A stretch of 64,000 nucleotides of DNA. Source: Candidatus Gastranaerophilales bacterium. Its GTDB lineage: Bacteria; Cyanobacteriota; Vampirovibrionia; Gastranaerophilales; Gastranaerophilaceae. The notes beneath the pieces are model-generated. The model saw only the letters and a program-made list of their open reading frames with translations, had not been told where the DNA came from and made no database searches. Location of the stretch: NCBI GenBank assembly GCA_944324905.1, contig CALUYB010000003.1, forward strand, positions 62,001-126,000, read 5' to 3'. The translations under genes and the position numbers were made by a program. Shown here piece after piece: positions 23,414 to 47,563 of the stretch; the first letter of the stretch is position 1; each line of letters opens with the position of its first letter.

Positions 23414-25795
23414 TTAATTGTACTCCGTCCAGTACAAATAAACATATCCGTTTTGTCCATTACCACCATAGCCCGGGTTGTTTGTCGGATACATCGTAGT
23501 ATTATACGCGTATCCGCCACCGCCTCCGCCGGCTCCTGCTTTGCCATAATCAGCAGCGTCAAATATATTAGATGGTGAAACAAATACTGGACTTAAACCA
23601 AATGCACCGGTTGCAGAGCAACTTCCGCCATTATCAAATAATGCTCCACATCCTCCTTCGCTTTGAACTCCACTTTTTCCGCCATTTCCACCAATTGCGC
23701 CAATATCTCCTGCACTTCCATCACTACCCTTAGCCCCTGCAACAGATGTTCCGGTACTTAATTTAGAAGCACCATTACCACCTACACCATGGACAACAGA
23801 AGCAGTTGAACTTGCGCTGGTTCCAGCAGTACCGCCTTTGCCGCCACTTAAAGTATAACTTACACTACCAAAAGTAACTTTACTTTCTCCACCATTTGAG
23901 CCATTATTTGCAACGGCTCCACCATTACCACCGCCACCAACACGAATAACATAATTAGTAGAAGGTGTAACAGTTATATTTTCAACTTTTAACATGGCAC
24001 CACCGCCGCCACCTCCGCCTGCAGCAGGGTCGTAAACTATGTCATAGGTAATTTCTGCTACTCCATTTGCTCCTTTTCCTCCTGCTCCTGCGGTTGCAAC
24101 ATCAGAAACAACTTTTGTTGTTCCACCGCCGCCGCCTGAGCCATAAAGTGACCCGTTACCACCATTTACAGAACTTGAGCTGCCACCATTACCACCTCCG
24201 GATAGCGATGTTGTATTATACATTGAGCCTCCGCCAACACCGCCACCGGCTGCAGTATTACTATCTGTTACTTGTAATTTATTTCCATTATTTCCTGCAC
24301 CGCCAACACCTGAGCAGCTTGTATTTGTCCAACTTCCATTTTGAAATATCTTACAGCTATTTGTACTTACACTACTTCCACCATTACCAAAAGTAGACCC
24401 AGTCGCTCCCTTTCCTCCATTTCCACCTGAAGCTTTTAATCCCCATTTTAAATTTCCATCCGCGTCATACAGTGCTATGTATGATTCAGAACCATTGTTA
24501 CCATTGCTCGCGTTAGATCCAGATGAACTTGCTTTATTTCCACCTTTTGCCCCAGGAGCAGAATACAATACAATCCTTCCTCCAATGTTATTTGAAATTA
24601 CACTTTCAGGAATTTGATAGTTCTTAAAATACCCTCCAGCACTACCTCCACCACCTGAGTAGGAGTTATATGTCGAGCCTCCGCCCTCCAGGACACAGCG
24701 AACCGAATCGGCGTAGCGAGGACCCTGACTGCTCTGACTGAAGCTACCACTGTCCAGGCCGAAATAGTAGTAATTGCTGCCATTAGGTGTAGAAGACCAC
24801 ACCTCTCTCGGGTAGCAGAAACCATTGGTAGCCCCGTCGCAAACGCTGTAAATGGCGCAGTGCGCTGCGCCGTAACCGGTGCCGTAGTCACAGAGCCTCA
24901 AGCCGTTATCACCTTTGTTTTTGTTAATAGATGAAATATTTGTTTTCCATTTAGCCATCTCATCTTTTGTTGGTAATCTCCAATCACCTGCTTTTGTGCC
25001 ATTGTATGCTAATGCTTGACAAGAGGCGTTACCGGCGTACCAGGTGCATACTGTTCTGTTGCATCCGCTGTAAGTTGTGCCTGAACTATCACATGAGCCT
25101 GCAGTGTTTCCTTGCCAGCAGCATGCGTTAGCATTGCAAGTTCTGTTAGTTTGAACAGTTGTAACACTTGCTGCTATCCCGCCATTTGTTGCTGATGGGA
25201 TATCCCCAATATTCCACTTGGTAACACATACACCTGTTGATGTTCCATTTTGTGCTGGTGTTAAGTATTTCGCATCATATTTATCGCAATCAGCCTGAGA
25301 TGTTGGCACTTTACCCGCTGTTTCAACCCATGCTCCGCCGCCTCCGCCGCCGCCTGAGCCTGCTAAATATGTAACTGTAAAATTTTTCATGCCTTTTGTA
25401 ATTGTAAACTCTTGAGTTTTAGCACTGCCAATTGTAGCGTTTGTTACAGTTAATTTTTTTCCATAGTCATAATTAGGCGTTGTAGCTCCAGCACCTCCGC
25501 CACCGCCTGAGACCATGACAACATTCATGCTTTTAACACCAGAGCCTGTTCTAAAAGTACAATCAAGAGCATTTTGCCCAGAAACTGCAGAGCAGTTTGG
25601 ATCGGTTGGATTATACAAAAAAAGTTTACTTTCTTTTTTAGTACTTCCTCCTCCGCCTGAAACATTAATGTTACTTGTCACCCTTTTGGTGATGACAGGG
25701 GCTAAAACTACCATAATAATTGAAATAATAAGAGTTGACACCAGCAATTCTGCTAGAGTAAAGCCCAAAAGGGCGTTCAAAGCACGTTTTTTCAT
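23414..25795 (-). CDS. Giant glycine-rich type IV prepilin-like protein with lectin/FGE-like insert
   Basis: A prepilin leader (MKKRALNALLG, cleavage before FTLAELLV, with Glu5) and a hydrophobic helix ending in APVITKR mark a type IV pilin or pseudopilin. The chain is about 793 residues, several times a normal pilin. The rest is strongly Gly/Ser/Asn-rich with repeated GGGG blocks, resembling a glycine-rich adhesin. Inside it (about 24690-25330) sits a Cys-rich domain with DWRLPTKDEMAKW and VWSSTPNGS...SVRCV, like DUF1566/FGE-type C-lectin folds. I chose ATG 25795 because GGAGAAG lies 9 nt upstream; an in-frame ATG at 25813 is possible. Likely surface-exposed. See the separate entry for the GC-rich patch. 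Confidence 0.75.
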   Translation of the reverse strand: MKKRALNALLGFTLAELLVSTLIISIIMVVLAPVITKRVTSNINVSGGGGSTKKESKLFLYNPTDPNCSAVSGQNALDCTFRTGSGVKSMNVVMVSGGGGGAGATTPNYDYGKKLTVTNATIGSAKTQEFTITKGMKNFTVTYLAGSGGGGGGGAWVETAGKVPTSQADCDKYDAKYLTPAQNGTSTGVCVTKWNIGDIPSATNGGIAASVTTVQTNRTCNANACCWQGNTAGSCDSSGTTYSGCNRTVCTWYAGNASCQALAYNGTKAGDWRLPTKDEMAKWKTNISSINKNKGDNGLRLCDYGTGYGAAHCAIYSVCDGATNGFCYPREVWSSTPNGSNYYYFGLDSGSFSQSSQGPRYADSVRCVLEGGGSTYNSYSGGGGSAGGYFKNYQIPESVISNNIGGRIVLYSAPGAKGGNKASSSGSNASNGNNGSESYIALYDADGNLKWGLKASGGNGGKGATGSTFGNGGSSVSTNSCKIFQNGSWTNTSCSGVGGAGNNGNKLQVTDSNTAAGGGVGGGSMYNTTSLSGGGNGGSSSSVNGGNGSLYGSGGGGGTTKVVSDVATAGAGGKGANGVAEITYDIVYDPAAGGGGGGGAMLKVENITVTPSTNYVIRVGGGGNGGAVANNGSNGGESKVTFGSVSYTLSGGKGGTAGTSASSTASVVHGVGGNGASKLSTGTSVAGAKGSDGSAGDIGAIGGNGGKSGVQSEGGCGALFDNGGSCSATGAFGLSPVFVSPSNIFDAADYGKAGAGGGGGGYAYNTTMYPTNNPGYGGNGQNGYVYLYWTEYN
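24686..24905 (-). other. GC-rich lectin-like segment, candidate DGR variable region
   Basis: Within the prepilin gene this stretch is clearly richer in G and C than the AT-rich genes around it. Read in frame, most codons end in C or T (for example TAC TAC TAT TTC GGC and GAC AGT GGT AGC TTC AGT), as expected if AAY codons of a template were replaced by NNY. It encodes the VWSST...DSVRCV part of a C-type-lectin-like fold, the usual place of variable residues in diversity-generating retroelement targets. No reverse transcriptase or template repeat is in the window. Confidence 0.45.
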
Positions 25796-25853
25796 ATCAA
25801 AATTCTTCTCCATATTCAGGCTATTTGCCTGAGTGACATGTACAAAATACCAC

Positions 25854-36495: not shown

Positions 36496-36851
36496 AAAAT
36501 ATCCTGATAGTTGAGGATAATCCGACAAATATGAAACTTTTTGCCGACATTTTAGAGGCAAAAGGTTATTCTGTAACAAAAACTTACGATGGGCTTGAGG
36601 CTTACGGCGTAATTAAAGAAAACTCTTTTGATTTAATGATTTTGGATATTCAACTGCCTGAGCTAGATGGTTTTTCACTTCTTAAAAAGCTAAAAGACGA
36701 GAATATTAATTGTCCTAAAACTCTAATTGTATCAGCTTTTGCAATGGATAAAGACAAACAAAAAGCAAAAGCATTGGGTTGTGACAATTATATTACAAAA
36801 CCTATTGATATAATGAATTTTTTAGCAACGGTTAAAAAGCTTACTAAATAA
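36492..36851 (+). CDS. Single-domain response regulator
   Basis: A stand-alone receiver domain of 119 residues, similar in layout to DivK or CheY types. The acidic pair Glu8/Asp9, phospho-acceptor Asp52 (LMILDIQLPELDG), the Ser/Thr switch (LIVSAFAM) and the conserved Lys (NYITKPIDI) are intact. There is no output domain, so it must signal by protein interaction or pass phosphate on. It is translationally coupled to the kinase. The 3' end overlaps the convergent radical SAM gene by 8 nt. Confidence 0.93.
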   Translation: MKNILIVEDNPTNMKLFADILEAKGYSVTKTYDGLEAYGVIKENSFDLMILDIQLPELDGFSLLKKLKDENINCPKTLIVSAFAMDKDKQKAKALGCDNYITKPIDIMNFLATVKKLTK

Positions 36852-38625
36852 TGCTTTTATCATAGATTTTATGCATTTTTAAATTAGAACAAACACCGCA
36901 ATTTGAACATTTTTGCTCGCAAGGGATTGTATTTTGCGCATTTTTTGCTTTGTTATACTCATTAATTAGCCAGTCTTTGTTTAAACCGCAATCGATAATA
37001 TCCCAAGGAGAAATATCATTTGGATTAAGCATTTTAACCGCTTCTTTTGAAAAATCAATACCCAGTTTACAAGCTATATCATTATAAAGTTCAAAATTAA
37101 TATTTTCTTCCCATGAATCAAGATATGAGCCGTTTTTATAAAGCTTGTAAATAAAACGTCCTGCGCCCTTATCAGCACGCGTAAAAAATGCCTCAAGCTG
37201 AGAAACGCGCGGTGAGTGAAAATTTAACTTTGCATTTTTAATTTCAGGCTTTCTTGAAAGCAAAAGTTGCTTCTTGCGCTCAATTTCATCGATGGAATTT
37301 TGTCCATGCCAGCAAAACGGTGTGTGAGGCTTTGGAACAAAAACAGAAATTGAACAGGTGATGGAGGGAAGTCTTAATCCTTCTTTTTTGCAATTATAGT
37401 TAATAGTTTTTATTAAATCAGCAATTGCAAGAACATCTTCATCTTCTTCAAAAGGCAGACCTATAATAAAATAAAACTTTATTTTATCCCAACCGCTTCT
37501 AACGCAGGACAAAACAGCATTTAAAATCTGCTCTTGGGTTAAATTTTTATTAATAACGTCGCGCATTCTTTGACTACCTGCTTCAGGAGCAATTGTAATC
37601 GCGGACTTTTTCTCTTGCTGCATAAGCTGTGCTAGTTTTATTGAAAATTTATCAGCACGCTGGCTGGGCAAGGAAACATTCACGCCTGTGCCGCTAAAGT
37701 GTTTATTAAGTTTTTCAATGATATTTTCAATGTTTGTGTGGTCATTAGATGAAAGAGAAAGCAGAGAATATTCATCATATCCTGTATTTTTAACATAATC
37801 ACATGCAAGGGAAATTATATCATCAGCATTTCTTTCTCTAACAGGCAAATTAGTATGCGCACTTTGACAAAAACGGCATAATCTGCCGCAACCCCTTCTG
37901 ATTTCTACCGTTGCCCTGTCATGCACGCTCACAAAATGTGATATAGGAGATTTTACAGGGTGTGACTTTTTATCAGGTATAAAAATTCTTTTTGTTGTTT
38001 TTTTAGGGTATTTTGGGCAATACACGCCTTGTATTTGAGATAACTCTGCTAAAATTTCATCGCGTGTTTTGGTTTTAATTTTATCGTATAAGTCTAAAAT
38101 TTCTATAAGAACTTCTTCACCATCACCAATTAAAAACAAATCAATAAAATCACTCATTGGTGCAGGGTTAAAGGCGCAAGGCCCTCCTGCAAAAATTATA
38201 GGATCGTCATCTTTTCTCTCATTTGAAAATACTGCTACATTTGAAAATTCAAGCATTTTTAAAATTGTCGTGTAAGACATTTCATATTGTAGAGCAAATC
38301 CTAAAAAATTAAACGAGTTTAAGGGCTTTTTTGATTCTAATGCATAAAGAGGCTTGTTATATTTTTTTAATAAGTCCAGAAAATCTTTATCGGGCGCATA
38401 GGCTCTATCTGCCATATACAATGGATGAGAGTTTACAATATGGTACAAGATTTTATGACCAAAGTTGCTAATTCCAATTTCATATTTATCAGGAAAAACA
38501 AAGGCGACCTTGACATTTGCCTTGTTAAAATCCTTGTTAGCACTTAAAAATTCATCACCTATATAACGTGAAGGTCTTTCACAAGAGGATAAAATTAAAG
38601 CATATTCATCTAAAAAATTACTCAT
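36844..38625 (-). CDS. Radical SAM protein, TIGR03960-like family
   Basis: The 593-residue protein matches the uncharacterised radical SAM group often annotated TIGR03960. It has an N-terminal B12-binding-like region (AFVFPDKYEIGISNFGHKIL, FAGGPCAFNPAPMSDFID, IGDGEEVL) and the cluster motif RRGCGRLCRFCQ with CxxxCxxC. IAPEAGSQRMRDVINK and FYFIIGLPFEEDED follow. The C-terminus adds a Cys-rich tail (CEQKCSNCGVCSNL) that could hold another Fe-S cluster. In many genomes a DUF2344 domain is fused or adjacent; here a different 105-residue gene overlaps the start by 4 nt. Function unknown. Confidence 0.82.
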   Translation of the reverse strand: MSNFLDEYALILSSCERPSRYIGDEFLSANKDFNKANVKVAFVFPDKYEIGISNFGHKILYHIVNSHPLYMADRAYAPDKDFLDLLKKYNKPLYALESKKPLNSFNFLGFALQYEMSYTTILKMLEFSNVAVFSNERKDDDPIIFAGGPCAFNPAPMSDFIDLFLIGDGEEVLIEILDLYDKIKTKTRDEILAELSQIQGVYCPKYPKKTTKRIFIPDKKSHPVKSPISHFVSVHDRATVEIRRGCGRLCRFCQSAHTNLPVRERNADDIISLACDYVKNTGYDEYSLLSLSSNDHTNIENIIEKLNKHFSGTGVNVSLPSQRADKFSIKLAQLMQQEKKSAITIAPEAGSQRMRDVINKNLTQEQILNAVLSCVRSGWDKIKFYFIIGLPFEEDEDVLAIADLIKTINYNCKKEGLRLPSITCSISVFVPKPHTPFCWHGQNSIDEIERKKQLLLSRKPEIKNAKLNFHSPRVSQLEAFFTRADKGAGRFIYKLYKNGSYLDSWEENINFELYNDIACKLGIDFSKEAVKMLNPNDISPWDIIDCGLNKDWLINEYNKAKNAQNTIPCEQKCSNCGVCSNLKMHKIYDKSII

Positions 38626-38939
38626 GCAAGATTTTCCGGTTTTAGTTTGTCGATGTCTATAATCTCGCCTTCAATTTTACCATTAAAATAAGCATCGAAA
38701 AATAAGTTTAACTTTGAGCCTTCAACAAAAAAATTATAAACAAAAGTGTTTTTATCCACCTTTCTTGCAACTGAAATGTTGTATCTGTTTTTATTTGAAT
38801 ACTCCAGTAAATGCTCAATATTGAATTCAAGCCCGTTTACGTCTTTTTTTAGTTTTATATACTCAAACCCTAAATAAGATTTTAGTTGTGCTACTTTTTT
38901 AGTGTTATTTTTTGTGTCAAATCTGGTTATTTTACTCAT
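38622..38939 (-). CDS. Hypothetical protein (105 aa) upstream of the radical SAM gene
   Basis: I do not recognise it. It is a small soluble alpha/beta protein with a basic N-terminus and acidic C-terminus, without signal peptide or membrane helix. It does not show the DUF2344 motif that usually accompanies the downstream radical SAM family. The 4-nt overlap with that gene implies coupled expression and perhaps a shared complex. A TTTAAT hexamer lies 6 nt before the ATG. Confidence 0.6.
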   Translation of the reverse strand: MSKITRFDTKNNTKKVAQLKSYLGFEYIKLKKDVNGLEFNIEHLLEYSNKNRYNISVARKVDKNTFVYNFFVEGSKLNLFFDAYFNGKIEGEIIDIDKLKPENLA

Positions 38940-39074: not shown

Positions 39075-40295
39075 TTATGCTGCTTTTGCTTCTTGAGTTT
39101 TTTCTTCTTTTGGTTGTTCTGCAGCTTGAGCTTCAGGTGCTTGTTGTTCAGTTTGAGCTGTTTGTTCTTGCTGGGGTTGTTCAGCCTGAGCTGCTTGTTC
39201 TTGCTGTGCAGCAGCTGGTTGTTGAGCTGACTCAGCAGGTGCAACGCTTAAGTTATTAAGAGCATTTTCAGCTACACTTTTAACCATCTGATCTTGGCCA
39301 TTTAGTGCAGGTTGAAGTGCTTGTTCAACATCAGCTTTTTCTTCAGGTTTTGCCATGTATTGCAATGCTTGAACACCTGCTGATCTTACTTCTGGATTTG
39401 GATCATTTTTAATTACGTTTGCAATGTCATTATAGCCCATCAGCTCTTTAATTCCCGGTTGAGCAGGAGCTTGTTTACCTTGTTCTTGTTGAAATTGAGC
39501 ATATTGTGCAACATTATCTCTTGCGGCTTTTTGCAACATTGAAAGTGTGAATAAAGCTATCATTTTATTTTTATCAATGTAGAATTTTTCAGCACCCTTG
39601 CCTAATTTTGCTTCTTCTTCAGGTGTTAATTGTTGTCCATTATCTTTTTTAGCTATAAGTTGCAATTCTTCTTCACTAGGCTGCGGTAAGGAGCTGCTGT
39701 CTTTGTTAATAATGTCAATCAAACCTTGTTTAACAGGGTCAACTGCTGCTTGTAAAACTAAATCAGGGCTGGTATTTACAATGTTAGCAATTGATGTGAT
39801 TGCATTTTTTTGAGTTACATAATCGGGGCTTTTTAAGTCTTGAACCAATGCATCTACATTAAGCTGAGGAACATTCTCTTGTGGAGTTACTTCAGGCATT
39901 TGCGGTTGCTGTGTTTGTTCAACTTGATTGGCTTGTTGAGGTTGTGTTTCAATTGCGCTCTGTGGCATTTCTTGCTGAACTACAGGTGCTGTTTCTTGAA
40001 TGTTTGGCATTGGTATAATTTTTTGTTGATTATCATAAATTGGTGCGCTCATAATTTGTTGCGGCATTGTAGGAAGCGTTGGATTCATTGCGTATTGTTG
40101 ATACGGGGAAACCGCAAAGTTTTGAGGCTGTTGTGCCCATGCTGATGCTTGAGGCATTGAATAAAGTTGATTTGTATAACCATAAGGTGCGCAATTATTT
40201 GGAGCAGAACCATAACTTTTTGGTTCATAAATATTTATGCTAACAGCAGATGGTGATTGAGGGTATTGCTGCTGAAAATACTGCGGTTGTATCAT
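39075..40295 (-). CDS. Gln-rich protein with HEAT-like repeats and AVSINI motif
   Basis: The 406-residue protein has three parts. The N-terminus (1-150) is Pro/Gln-rich and includes SAVSINIYEPKSYG. The centre (about 155-345) has alpha-helical HEAT-like repeats such as LKSPDYVTQKNAITSIANIV and DPNPEVRSAGVQALQYMA. The tail is very rich in Gln, Ala and Glu. There is no signal peptide. The AVSINI motif is shared with the 40863-41642 protein, so these are probably paralogues. HEAT repeats suggest a protein-binding scaffold. A GGAG site precedes the ATG. Function unknown. Confidence 0.7.
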   Translation of the reverse strand: MIQPQYFQQQYPQSPSAVSINIYEPKSYGSAPNNCAPYGYTNQLYSMPQASAWAQQPQNFAVSPYQQYAMNPTLPTMPQQIMSAPIYDNQQKIIPMPNIQETAPVVQQEMPQSAIETQPQQANQVEQTQQPQMPEVTPQENVPQLNVDALVQDLKSPDYVTQKNAITSIANIVNTSPDLVLQAAVDPVKQGLIDIINKDSSSLPQPSEEELQLIAKKDNGQQLTPEEEAKLGKGAEKFYIDKNKMIALFTLSMLQKAARDNVAQYAQFQQEQGKQAPAQPGIKELMGYNDIANVIKNDPNPEVRSAGVQALQYMAKPEEKADVEQALQPALNGQDQMVKSVAENALNNLSVAPAESAQQPAAAQQEQAAQAEQPQQEQTAQTEQQAPEAQAAEQPKEEKTQEAKAA

Positions 40296-40422
40296 TATAC
40301 GTTTCTCCTTTTCTAATAAAATTCTTATTATCTGATATTATAAATCTTGTGATTAAAAATTATTGCTAAATATTTGCTAAATTTTAAGTTTTGTAACAAA
40401 TGTCTTAAAAAGCCCGATTTTG

Positions 40423-40863
40423 CTACTTCAAATAGTCTTTCCTTTCAAATATATTGGTGCTGTTTTTAATAAAATCCCATGCTACAGACAAACCAAGACC
40501 AATAATGCCTGCTTTTCTTGTTCCGTCTTTTTTGGCAAAGAATGCTAAAGCAGAAAAACCAAGGGTAGCTATATTATAACCAATTCCTTTTGCTACGCCC
40601 TTGAGGTAGCCTGTTGCAGTATTCCATATTTCAGAAATTTGCAATGGATATTTAAAATTCATTAACCATTTTTTCATGGCATTGTGTTTTTCGCTTGGGT
40701 AATTAAGCTTAGATGAACCGATTTGATCAGCAATAAAGTCATCCGCGTAATTTTTTTCACGTTTAATGTTAGCTTCTCTTACGCCAAGTTTGTGAATATC
40801 GTATAAAGAAGCACCTGTAGCTAGTGTTGCAGCTGACTTAGAGGCAATATTTAATATATTCAT
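40423..40863 (-). CDS. Hypothetical protein with one hydrophobic segment (146 aa)
   Basis: Unrecognised. It is a basic protein with a Gly-rich hydrophobic stretch near the C-terminus (GLGLSVAWDFI) and another around GIGYNIATLGFSALAFFA, so one or two membrane helices are possible. The N-terminal ASKSAATLATGASLYDIHK is helical. A GGAGG site lies in the 3' end of the upstream HEAT-like gene, and the start and stop codons overlap (TAATG), so the two are translated together. Confidence 0.6.
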   Translation of the reverse strand: MNILNIASKSAATLATGASLYDIHKLGVREANIKREKNYADDFIADQIGSSKLNYPSEKHNAMKKWLMNFKYPLQISEIWNTATGYLKGVAKGIGYNIATLGFSALAFFAKKDGTRKAGIIGLGLSVAWDFIKNSTNIFERKDYLK

Positions 40864-41642
40864 TATTTAACCTCCTTTGTTGCCTCAGTTGTATCTTCTT
40901 TTTTTGACTCAACCACTTGTCCTTCTTCTGGTTTAAATTTAACTTTATCACCGGCACTCAATTTTAACAAGATTTGCGTTGCTAGTGACGAGTCTTCACC
41001 GTATTCTTTTTGTCCATCAGCTTGGATAGCTTTTAGAAGCTCTAAAGTTTGTTCGTTTCCTTTTGCATAACCTGCATCAAGGATTGTTAAACCTAAAAAG
41101 CGAACAGCAGAGTTTGGATCTTGCAAAATCTTGTTTAACAACGCAGTTAAAGCTACGTCATTTTTTCTGTTTAAATCTTCTTTAAATCTGTCTAATAAAT
41201 CATTTGCGGCCATTAATCTGACCTTAGCATCTTGAGAATTCAAATAATTTTCTAAAGTTTTTATATAGTCATCCGTTAAAGGAATTTTTTCTCTTAATTC
41301 TTCTTTTTTTTCTTCTGTTTTATTTTCCTCTTTATTATCAGCAGAAGCTGCTCCAACAACCGGTGCAGGAGGGGTTGGTGATTTGTCCTGTTGATTTGGT
41401 AGAGCATTTAGTGAGTTTGAATTAACATTGTTATTATAATTCATAGGGTATTGCATCTGCATTGGCTGAGCAGAATAATAGCTTGTAGTAGGATATTGAT
41501 ATACACCATTTTGGTATGGCTGACACATTGGATTTGTCATACCAACGGTTGGGTTCATAATGTTTATAGAAACAGCACCGCATGACGCAGTTGGAACTGC
41601 CTGCGGCATATATGTTTGCTGATTATATAAAGGATAACTCAT
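40863..41642 (-). CDS. HEAT-like repeat protein with AVSINI motif
   Basis: The start is set at ATG 41642 because GGAG lies 7 nt upstream; the longer in-frame ORF begins in the leader. The 259-residue protein has a Tyr/Gln/Pro-rich N-terminus with GAVSINIMNPTVG and a low-complexity acidic spacer (KEENKTEEKKEELREK). A HEAT/armadillo-like region follows (about 120-235: YLNSQDAKVRLMAANDLLD, LLNKILQDPNSAVRFLGLTIL). It resembles the downstream 39075-40295 protein in layout and motif. Probably a cytoplasmic or envelope-associated scaffold; function unknown. Confidence 0.7.
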   Translation of the reverse strand: MSYPLYNQQTYMPQAVPTASCGAVSINIMNPTVGMTNPMCQPYQNGVYQYPTTSYYSAQPMQMQYPMNYNNNVNSNSLNALPNQQDKSPTPPAPVVGAASADNKEENKTEEKKEELREKIPLTDDYIKTLENYLNSQDAKVRLMAANDLLDRFKEDLNRKNDVALTALLNKILQDPNSAVRFLGLTILDAGYAKGNEQTLELLKAIQADGQKEYGEDSSLATQILLKLSAGDKVKFKPEEGQVVESKKEDTTEATKEVK

Positions 41643-41785
41643 ATTAAGACTCCACTTCCTTATATTAATAAACTCAACGGCTCTATATAAAATGCCTAAA
41701 TTTGAAAAAATATTAAGAATTATTAACATTTGAATAATTATTTTTGTGATATATTTGAATAAACAGCTTGAAGCAAGGAGAGAAC

Positions 41786-44701: not shown

Positions 44702-44838
44702 AAAAAATAGGAAATAAGGTGAAACTCCTTAACTGGACCGCAGCCGTAAAGTCGGAAAACTTATATATCCTGTAATTGCGTGAACCGATACAGGAGGTAA
44801 AGTTCCTTGTGTTGCGGTCAATAGCACAAGGTTTTTTA
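44702..44838 (+). ncRNA. Cobalamin-riboswitch-like structured leader
   Basis: The core reads TAGGAAATAAGGTGAAACTCC, then CTGGACCGCAGCCGTAA and TCGG, which lines up with the GGGAA-GGTGnAAnTCC-CnGnCCCGCnACnGTAA core of cobalamin riboswitches. TAAGG/CCTTA (44715-44719 and 44727-44731) is the P4-like helix. GACCGCA (44736-44742) is perfectly complementary to TGCGGTC (44813-44819) in the loop of a hairpin CCTTGTG/CACAAGG, like the L5-L13 kissing loop. That hairpin holds the AAGG ribosome site and is followed by six T. I do not find the usual GCCACTG box, so the class is not certain. Confidence 0.6.
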
Positions 44839-45579
44839 ATGGTAGGATATTTATCACAAGTTAATAACAACAGAGCAAATACTTGCCCACATGGCTTGCC
44901 GCTAGGTGCATGCCCAATCTGCAACGGCATGGGTGGCGGCGGAGGTTCTACAAAAAAAATGGATGAGCCAAGGCGCCCTGGAGAAATGTCCTATCAAGAG
45001 TGCTATGCCCAGTGGAAACAAATGCAAAGAGCGCAGGCAAGGGAGCAAGCCTTGCAAGAGGCGATGTTAAAAAATGCTGAACTTGCAGCAAAATTTCAAC
45101 AACAATTAACAAATGTTGTAAATACTGCCCATAATATCCTTGATAAAATTCAGCAAAATTTACCAAAACCTGTTGCAAAAGTCTTTGAAGGGATTTCAAA
45201 TAATATCTTAAAACCATTGCTAAACATCATAAAAGATTTTCCTCAAATAATTAAAAATCTGCCAAATGCCATTGAAACAATTAAAAATGAAATAGCAAAA
45301 GTAGCAGAAAAGATTAGCGCCGTAATTGGTGAAATTCAAAACTTTATAGAAAAGAAAATTTCAGATGCAACAAAAGTTCTGAAAAAGAAATTTAGAAAGC
45401 TCTTGTCTTTCTTCGGTATAGAAGAAGAATACGAAGAAGACGAAGAACTAAAGAAAGAAATTGCAGTATTTAAAGAATTTGAAATTGAAAACTTAAAGGA
45501 ATTACTAAGAAAGCTTATTAGACCAAGAAGTCAGAAGGAAGAAGAAATTGCCGCAAGTACAGATAACCAGTATCAATAA
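44839..45579 (+). CDS. Protein with CPHG...CPIC zinc-knuckle-like motif and amphipathic helices
   Basis: I do not recognise the family. The ATG at 44839 is 7 nt after AAGG in the leader hairpin; a longer in-frame ORF would run through the RNA structure. Near the N-terminus CPHGLPLGACPICNG offers Cys, His, Cys, Cys as a possible zinc site, followed by GMGGGGGSTKK. Then come Gln/Ala-rich helices, an apolipophorin-like amphipathic stretch (about 95-185: ILKPLLNIIKDFPQIIKNLP), and an acidic end. There is no signal peptide. It is the first gene of a four-gene run and the apparent target of the riboswitch-like leader. Confidence 0.7.
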   Translation: MVGYLSQVNNNRANTCPHGLPLGACPICNGMGGGGGSTKKMDEPRRPGEMSYQECYAQWKQMQRAQAREQALQEAMLKNAELAAKFQQQLTNVVNTAHNILDKIQQNLPKPVAKVFEGISNNILKPLLNIIKDFPQIIKNLPNAIETIKNEIAKVAEKISAVIGEIQNFIEKKISDATKVLKKKFRKLLSFFGIEEEYEEDEELKKEIAVFKEFEIENLKELLRKLIRPRSQKEEEIAASTDNQYQ

Positions 45580-47062
45580 CGCCAACAGGTATTTAACAAA
45601 TCGCCAGTTAAAACAAAAAAACGCAACGCTTGAAGGCGTTGTAGTTAACAATTTTATAAAAGATTATGATGCTCAAGAATGTGCAAATTTAGATGACACT
45701 TACAATACTCTTGTAATATCTGATAATGAAAGTGAAAACGTTCAAAAATACATTGGGGCCGAAAAGGAAAAAGGTTACAATGCAAAAAAAGCCTTGTTGC
45801 CACTTGCGCTTAGTACTGGTGCAATATTTGCCTCAGGCGCGATTTTAAGTTTTCTCTTTAAAAATTCTGCAAAGAAAAATTTAACCGAGCCCTTTATTAA
45901 AAAATTGCCATCAATGGGTATGAATATAAATATTGTTGAAGAAACAGGTTTTGCAACATACATGGCGCTAAGCGATCCTAACAGGCAAAATATAATGGCA
46001 ACAATAGCGGTTTTTGCCTTTAGCGCATTGACGCTCACTGCTAAAAAATTTGTTGAAGGTGTAAAGGAAATTTGGGTTAAAAAACAAGACGCGCAAGTTC
46101 AAAAGGAATTACAAGAAAATTTAATCGATGTTGAAACAAAAGCCTTTTCAGGGAAGTTGGCAATACAAAGAAATATGTTAAGCCAACATGGAAACTATTT
46201 TAAAAAAGCACTCCAAAACCAAAATAACAAAGAAAAAGACTTGGGTGCAATATATTTTAAAAATTTTAATTTTAAAGGTAGTAACAAGACAAAAGAACAA
46301 AATAATGACAAAAAGCTAAAAGATTTAATTACACCAAATGCGCTTATAAGTGCAGGCTTACTGATTGGCAGTGTAGCCCTTGGTATATTAACTCTAAAAA
46401 ACATAAAATCAGGTGCAAAGTACCACGAGGACTTTATTAACAACTTTAAAAACGCAAAGCAAAAAATCCTTGACGAGATAATAAATAACAAAACGCAAGA
46501 TAAAACATTGCTTACTGACACTTTAATTAAAATGGGTGCAAATTCTCAAAAAGCAAAAGAATGCGCACAAAAAGCAGGTTTTGGCGAAAAAGATATAAGC
46601 GACATAGTAGAAACTGTTTCAACTAACGTTGAAAACATCTGGGGCAATGCGCCGACAGGTATGAGTACAGAAAACGGAAAAGCATTTTTCTACTGTTATT
46701 TAAACGAAACTCGCGGACACCTGTATAATTGGCTTATACACAATGATAACCCATTTTTAAAGAATTTATTTATAGCAATGGCGGCAGTAAGCTCTACAAG
46801 TTTTGTAGCGCAACAAACAGCAGAGGCTATAAAAGAAGCAACTGTTATAAAAGAAAACGCTAAAACAGAGCTTGATCTACAAAAAAGGCTTGTTGAAGTT
46901 GAAATTAAAAATTTCAAAGCGAAAAAGGAAAGCGCAATTGCGCCGCTAATAGAGGAATTTGAGCGCAAGAAGAAAGAAGGCAAACCGGCAAACGAACTAA
47001 AGGTTATGGCGGATAACATCTTGCTTGAGATTAAAAACGGCCCTCCATTTGTTTATTCATAA
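45548..47062 (+). CDS. Membrane protein with an internal duplication (504 aa)
   Basis: Unrecognised. A GAAGGAAG site supports the TTG start at 45548, giving an N-terminus MPQVQITSINNANRY; it overlaps the preceding gene by 32 nt. About four hydrophobic segments are visible (82-104, 148-164, 264-284, 403-420). Residues 146-203 and 403-460 are similar: hydrophobic helix, then KKFVEGVKEIWV versus QQTAEAIKEATV, then ELQENLIDVETKAF versus DLQKRLVEVEIKNF. The protein looks like two copies of a membrane-plus-coiled-coil unit. It may form an envelope complex with its neighbours. Confidence 0.7.
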   Translation: MPQVQITSINNANRYLTNRQLKQKNATLEGVVVNNFIKDYDAQECANLDDTYNTLVISDNESENVQKYIGAEKEKGYNAKKALLPLALSTGAIFASGAILSFLFKNSAKKNLTEPFIKKLPSMGMNINIVEETGFATYMALSDPNRQNIMATIAVFAFSALTLTAKKFVEGVKEIWVKKQDAQVQKELQENLIDVETKAFSGKLAIQRNMLSQHGNYFKKALQNQNNKEKDLGAIYFKNFNFKGSNKTKEQNNDKKLKDLITPNALISAGLLIGSVALGILTLKNIKSGAKYHEDFINNFKNAKQKILDEIINNKTQDKTLLTDTLIKMGANSQKAKECAQKAGFGEKDISDIVETVSTNVENIWGNAPTGMSTENGKAFFYCYLNETRGHLYNWLIHNDNPFLKNLFIAMAAVSSTSFVAQQTAEAIKEATVIKENAKTELDLQKRLVEVEIKNFKAKKESAIAPLIEEFERKKKEGKPANELKVMADNILLEIKNGPPFVYS

Positions 47063-47071
47063 GGAAAAATT

Positions 47072-47563
47072 ATGCAAATCAGCCCATCTGGATTATTTAA
47101 CATACAAAACATAGGTAAAAATGTGCAAAGAGCAAATTTTAAACAAAATTTTTGCACATTTGACGAAAATAAAGTGCAACGAATAATTAATGAAAAAGAG
47201 ACCGCACTGCCGTACATAGAAAATATGCTCAAAACAACAAATGATGAAAATTGCGCTATAGAGTGCCTTTACATTTTAAACAGAATGCTTGACAATAACG
47301 TCAAAGGAATTGAGAAAATGTACCCGACATTAAGCAGGTTTAATTACTCAAATTCTCCTGATATTCAGGTAATGCTATCCGGAATATATAGAAAAACCCT
47401 GATACCGGACGCATTTGGTCCACTCAATAGAATGCTGGCGCAACAAATTTATTACCCAAACAGCCCATATTTTGACGCAACAGAAGAAATTGGCGGCGCA
47501 ATTTTAGAATATATAAGAAGTTATGGTGCAAAAAATGTATACAAACAACAATCTTGCAATTAA
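47072..47563 (+). CDS. Hypothetical HEAT-like helical protein (163 aa)
   Basis: Unrecognised. The N-terminus MQISPSGLFNIQNIGKNV followed by RANFKQNF resembles that of the upstream 504-aa protein (MPQVQITSINNAN). The body is all-helical with repeat-like spacing (ALPYIENMLKTTNDENCAIE, LYILNRMLDNNVKGIEKM), suggesting one or two HEAT-like units. There is no signal peptide or membrane helix. AAGGA lies 6-7 nt before the ATG, and only 9 nt separate it from the upstream stop, so it belongs to the same operon. Confidence 0.65.
   Translation: MQISPSGLFNIQNIGKNVQRANFKQNFCTFDENKVQRIINEKETALPYIENMLKTTNDENCAIECLYILNRMLDNNVKGIEKMYPTLSRFNYSNSPDIQVMLSGIYRKTLIPDAFGPLNRMLAQQIYYPNSPYFDATEEIGGAILEYIRSYGAKNVYKQQSCN

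Follow-up and report, generated by a model that had tools for sequence, protein, structure and literature searches.

A conserved N-terminal module common to two HEAT-like protein families of the Gastranaerophilales

The window, the whole 64,000-nucleotide stretch of DNA that we analyzed, comes from a 1.66 Mb host genome whose named relatives are mostly Candidatus Gastranaerophilales. On its minus strand, the open reading frames follow one another in the order A, M, B (Table 1). We place the start of A at the ATG at 41642, in preference to a longer ORF beginning at 41729, because the MSYP start is kept within the genus and a purine-rich, ribosome-binding-like sequence lies ahead of this ATG. 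The stop codon of A and the start codon of M share one base (TAATG), and a GGAGG sits within the 3' end of A. This arrangement suggests translational coupling, and A is probably coupled to M in this way.

The initial annotation had described A and B as flanking a small membrane protein gene. A 146-aa gene does lie between them, but its membrane nature is not established. The M product contains weak hydrophobic segments, with a best 19-residue Kyte-Doolittle mean of 1.17 in the window copy, and 10 of 28 members of the family reach 1.6. Since this hydrophobicity is moderate, a membrane protein is a plausible identity for M and no more. The window copy matches no Pfam family, and the genes flanking the locus, read by eye, gave no functional lead. 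A TIGR03960 radical SAM protein adjoins the A-M-B cluster, directly downstream of a 105-aa protein with a sub-threshold DUF3284 match (36844-38939, minus strand). Farther away, a 799-aa glycine-rich protein with an N-terminus that resembles type IV pilins by eye (23414-25813, minus strand) lies where the GC content of the window is highest (0.434, compared to 0.291-0.386 for other 2-kb stretches). Three consecutive orphan genes of 267, 504 and 163 aa occupy 44776-47563 on the plus strand; the 504- and 163-aa products have no Pfam match at E 0.01, and the 267-aa product has only matches below the cut-offs.

Table 1. Features of the A-M-B locus (positions are those of the window).
Feature	Position	Strand	Description
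Gene A	40863-41642	minus	259 aa; disordered N-terminus and HEAT-like helical domain; ORF
Core motif of A	41550-41579	minus	GAVSINIMNP, residues 22-31
Second shared element of A	41475-41504	minus	VYQYPTTSYY, residues 47-56; within the A-B aligned stretch; conserved tyrosines
HEAT/ARM-like helical domain of A	40956-41273	minus	residues 124-229; AlphaFold2 and structural match
Gene M	40423-40863	minus	146-aa orphan, possible membrane protein
Gene B	39075-40295	minus	406 aa; disordered N-terminus, HEAT-like helical domain, disordered C-terminus; ORF
Core motif of B	40221-40250	minus	SAVSINIYEP, residues 16-25
Second shared element of B	40137-40166	minus	LYSMPQASAW, residues 44-53; within the A-B aligned stretch
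HEAT/ARM-like helical domain of B	39246-39857	minus	residues 147-350; AlphaFold2, structural match and HEAT_2

AlphaFold2 predicts the helical domain of A with pLDDT mostly about 90 or more and that of B with values mostly above 85. Their best structural matches are ARM/HEAT folds (A: Z 13.3, rmsd 3.1, 110 residues aligned; B: Z 13.9, rmsd 3.4, 148 aligned), and these scores are near the level of about 13 under which a match between helical repeats may reflect only a common arrangement. Foldseek returned no match in the PDB at E 0.001 or better for either predicted domain. By sequence, the B profile matches designed and natural repeat proteins of solved structure (best designed match, E 1.5e-20), and A gave nothing convincing against solved structures. 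The Pfam family HEAT_2 (PF13646) scores 27.0 bits for B and 21.3 bits for A in the window copies, neither reaching the curated cut-off of 27.7; at E 0.001 all 29 B proteins have it, as do 11 of 49 A proteins. The HEAT-like repeats proposed in the initial annotation are upheld as helical by prediction, with family matches that stay below the cut-off in the window copies.

The two N-termini have the opposite character. Taking low pLDDT as a proxy for disorder, residues 5-26 and 28-78 of A and 5-24 and 26-36 of B all fall below 50. Within these regions both proteins carry AVSINI-x-x-P, at the places where it had first been read, and the motifs are predicted to have no secondary structure, with pLDDT below 50 at all but one motif residue per protein. 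No match in Pfam or NCBIfam covers the tail motif of window A or B.

Aligned across relatives, the motif takes the general form [AG]-[VI]-x-I-x-[IV]-x-x-P. V24, I26, I28 and P31 are invariant in 49 aligned A proteins, as are A17, V18, I20 and P25 in 29 aligned B proteins, in which Y45 and P48 of the second element are also invariant. The fraction held by the top residue in A is 0.83 in the motif, 0.35 in the rest of the tail and 0.70 in the HEAT part; the corresponding values in B are 0.82, 0.46 and 0.63. A conserved motif inside an otherwise variable N-terminus, as the initial annotation had it, is thus an accurate description of both families.

Among the named loci, which lean towards the query because they are the best-scoring 80 of 270, the strict motif occurs in 79 of 80 A proteins, the remaining one (L278) ending at a contig end, and in all 30 B proteins scoring above 250 bits. 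A more diverse fetched set, to which genomes of the window's own genus contribute 15 members of each family, has it in 59 of 73 A and 60 of 74 B proteins. It is degenerate in most of the others, and contig ends cut short at least two of the B proteins that lack it (G050 and G062). Variants recur: GVNIQIFNPSV in many A proteins, YNAVKIDVHNPxV in many B proteins, and degenerate forms such as AVNITINGVN in family f3, which, with genera g26 and g31, is among the lineages where the motif is in some cases degenerate or unrecognizable. In all 78 A motifs counted, the residue following the third hydrophobic position is F, Y, M, I or V.

Pattern searches show how closely the motif is confined to these two genes. 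The strict pattern, [AV]-V-S-I-N-I with a serine codon position that admits a few other residues, has four matches in the window's own genome, compared to none for a reversed-pattern control: A, B, an internal site in a GT11 glycosyltransferase and a 21-aa frame. A relaxed pattern has five, again with none in the control, namely A, B, two short frames (20 and 28 aa) and a match interrupted by a stop. When the strict pattern is lengthened to include the proline, exactly two matches, A and B, are left in each of 15 same-genus genomes. Across 98 genomes, the host genome included, 34 sites match the pattern and 5 match its reversed control; of the 34, 30 are the A and B of the own genus, one is the B of G067, and the remaining three are in short frames (20, 20 and 46 aa). 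For a looser pattern in the same 98 genomes, we inspected the matches beyond A, B and B-like tails at L073, L188-L198, L230, L231 and L345. None of them is the N-terminal motif of an A- or B-like protein; most are in short frames, others are in longer frames (one pantothenate kinase-like by eye), and L230 has no uninterrupted match. At L345 (1463, plus strand, G053), a 24-aa frame reads SAVNINIFEPS, which closely resembles the motif and lies apart from the A and B of that genome. Module and motif HMMs were run on a biased set, 1.97 Mb of DNA fetched around A and B, and found at E < 0.01 only A, B or motif-bearing tail fragments.

These searches bear on the suggestion in the initial annotation that the motif is a sorting tag, that is, an export or localization signal read by a transport or compartment system. 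An N-terminal position would suit such a signal, as would its presence on two different proteins and on the mini-proteins described below. However, a general sorting tag is rejected on the grounds that the patterns match N-terminally, in real genes of the own genome, only in A and B, and the HMM searches of the biased set found it only there and in tail fragments. No strongly hydrophobic segment is present in either protein, the best 19-residue hydropathy means being 0.94 in A and 0.93 in B. We consider a sorting or export role highly unlikely. The initial annotation would have abandoned its motif had it been absent from other proteins of the genome and its relatives, and the outcome is divided: by these patterns, other proteins of the own genome lack it, bar the one internal match, but the A and B proteins of relatives keep it. 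A separate element, with F-G or F-K near the N-terminus or in the tail (VHFGKNN, VSFGANI, ISFNGISFKAN), was seen by eye at 734-2137 on the minus strand and at L006, L074 and L127; it could be another recurring tag.

The similarity between A and B is not limited to the motif. An initial comparison of the family profiles aligned 24 columns around it (E 2.2e-6, probability 89). With columns set by the window sequence, hhalign aligned 46 or 41 columns with scores of 72.4 and 76.1 (E 1.8e-9 and 5e-10), compared to 17.8 and 17.1 for reversed profiles and 19.7 for the best of 40 column shuffles. The reversed-pattern, reversed-profile and column-shuffle controls rule out a chance match. The shared stretch contains a second element, Y-x-[MY]-P...[YW], and outside this tail module the two families have no strong match. 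The flanks of the motif, initially described as unrelated, are therefore not wholly so, given 41-46 shared columns and the second element within them. When the motif is masked, the HEAT parts align weakly (score 34.3, E 7e-4, probability 27%), so it is possible, from sequence comparison, that the two domains are distant paralogues.

Both families are nearly universal in the order. Of 383 genomes, 363 are matched by the A profile and 369 by the B profile; among the 306 good genomes, the numbers are 300 and 302. Neither A, searched as a profile, nor B, searched as a single sequence, has a match in 17 genomes from other orders of the class. We discarded a phage origin because A has no match in 50,697 phage records. 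M lies directly after A at 77 of the 80 named loci, and B directly after M at 29 of the 80. A and B are close together in the own genus, and in other families of the order they share a contig. Within the own family, B is located elsewhere than A in most of the genera sampled, yet both mostly keep the motif.

Shared descent could account for the shared tail if the HEAT domains are indeed paralogous. The motif would then be an ancestral remnant, kept in two old paralogues for a function within each protein, and both the weak HEAT-to-HEAT match and the proximity of the two genes in the own genus and in other families are consistent with this. Other features fit it poorly. Between the families, the short tail is matched much better than the folded domain, although neutral divergence would give the reverse, and in the AlphaFold2 predictions the motif forms no structure with the domain of its own protein. 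Furthermore, the tail exists without the domain. All three genomes examined in genus g34 (G047, G217 and G252) encode, upstream of B, a tail-only mini-protein of 63-64 aa (L076, L343 and L344) that repeats the B module and lacks the HEAT domain; the one in G217 has a GGAGG ahead of its ATG. Similar tail-only frames lie upstream of B in G048 (63-aa frame) and G033 (121-aa frame), and the mini-proteins resemble the B tail. Overall, we judge an inherited tail unlikely.

Another way to explain a shared motif is self-assembly, in which a cross-beta or prion-like strand polymerizes the Q/N/P/Y-rich tails of A and B. Hydrophobic residues alternate with Q or N in many A proteins (GVNIQIFNP), and the B of G038 (L074 1441-2643, plus strand) carries two motif copies, NAVKIQINKP and NAVNIQVDEP, 28 residues apart. 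Templated stacking should also favor matching motifs within a genome. The identity of A and B motifs is 0.615 in the 6 same-genome pairs called linked, which accords with stacking, but 0.446 in the 35 called unlinked, compared to 0.415 across genomes, which is mildly against it; "linked" here means that A and B came from one fetched locus, and adjacent pairs such as those of G016 and G040 were counted as unlinked. This comparison used a wrong first site in three or more genomes (among them G030, G047 and G052) and omitted the other 14 own-genus genomes, pairs below 100 bits and pairs without a loose motif. In addition, the strand is closed by a proline, and the RHIM core of known amyloid motifs, [IV]Q[IV]G, is absent: 0 of the 78 A motifs have a glycine after the third hydrophobic position. 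Homotypic assembly therefore seems quite unlikely to us.

The genomes that lack part of the system offer a different kind of evidence. A has no match in 20 genomes of the order. In genus g19, A and M were not found in any of the five genomes searched, which are all that were searched for that genus, and B is kept in all five as a short frame of 257-273 aa without the motif or the Q/P-rich tail. The five genomes have a completeness of 81-92% and evolve fast (B branch 1.67), so A and M may have diverged beyond recognition instead of being lost. Among four family f3 genomes searched with the M profile, three gave no match in spite of having A. A second case is G044 (genus g31, 97% complete), in which M is kept, no A is found upstream or elsewhere, and B again lacks the motif. 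In the B tree, G044 groups with g26 (support 100/99), apart from g19.

Other genomes depart from this pattern. The B motif is kept where neither A nor M was found in G033, G071, G163, G250, G352 and G386, and G163 is 99% complete; each of the six belongs to a genus that has A elsewhere, so the absence may stem from gaps in the assembly or from a recent loss. In G381, another genome with no A match, all that was seen is a 142-aa frame that carries the motif. Neither A nor B is matched in G061, G072, G077, G079, G366, G377 and G382.

Given the shared module, its conservation, the predicted disorder, the gene order and the pattern of loss, we propose that A and B are scaffolds that share a docking module in a flexible tail, and that this module would engage, in trans, a common partner tied to A. 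Several observations weigh against this reading: six genomes keep the B motif with neither A nor M found, the A and B motifs do not covary significantly once relatedness is allowed for (partial Mantel r 0.15, p 0.058 by permutation; 41 genomes, from the comparison described above with its omissions), the HEAT domains may be distant paralogues, and some lineages have a degenerate or unrecognizable motif. We hold it tentatively, at just short of an even chance. The docking half of the initial annotation's suggestion fares better than the sorting half: the tail is predicted to be unstructured, the motif is conserved above its surroundings and is carried by two families with weakly aligning folds, and mini-proteins consist of the tail by itself, all of which makes docking the likely role.

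In the proposed mechanism, A and B would be probably cytoplasmic scaffold proteins with an N-terminal docking module of roughly 45 residues. Its core, [AG]-V-x-I-x-I-x-x-P, has fixed V, I and I alternating with variable residues and then a proline, the pattern of a short extended strand. Such a strand would lie with one face in a groove and be ended by the proline. We infer that the module binds in trans to the putative common partner and that the HEAT-like domains bind something else, in which case A and B would be adaptors bringing clients to one site. The partner would be tied to A, being either A itself or an A-dependent protein, and M may place the docking site at the membrane. A bolder version holds that this is the order's own core plug-and-socket, an undescribed cytoplasmic assembly in which a strand-like module on two HEAT adaptors and on mini-proteins would recruit proteins to one A-dependent site, possibly linked to the membrane via M. 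We regard that version as a long shot.

Two genes found almost throughout this order of uncultured gut bacteria, relatives of the cyanobacteria, are brought into focus here, together with M as the neighbor of one of them. The analysis also provides a handle on the function of A and B, as the module is short enough for synthesis and has clear residues to change, and the loss pattern makes the question of the partner directly testable. In the portion of the literature accessible to us, we found no paper that joins Gastranaerophilales or Melainabacteria with a HEAT repeat and nothing on the module.

The closest general parallel is with short linear motifs (SLiMs) that dock as an extended strand, a known class of short motifs in disordered tails. 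Like them, the A/B module is a short conserved island in a disordered tail, with fixed hydrophobic residues and variable positions between them; the two folds attached to it align only weakly and may be paralogous. Unlike them, it is kept across most of a bacterial order and is found on two core proteins as well as on tail-only mini-proteins; to our knowledge, docking motifs in disordered tails kept across a whole bacterial order have seldom been described. Amyloid signaling motifs, such as RHIM and the bacterial BASS motifs, are likewise short, beta-prone and common to the products of neighboring genes, as is the motif of A and B. In contrast to those, the A/B motif lacks the RHIM core, its proteins have no receptor or effector domain in Pfam or NCBIfam, and unlinked pairs show little matching. 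Finally, A and B resemble the HEAT/ARM scaffolds of the HEAT_2 family in their predicted helical repeats (Z 13.3 and 13.9) and differ from its members in that the window copies score under the Pfam cut-off and the tail motif is covered by neither Pfam nor NCBIfam. The module looks like a new, order-specific form of a known kind of element.
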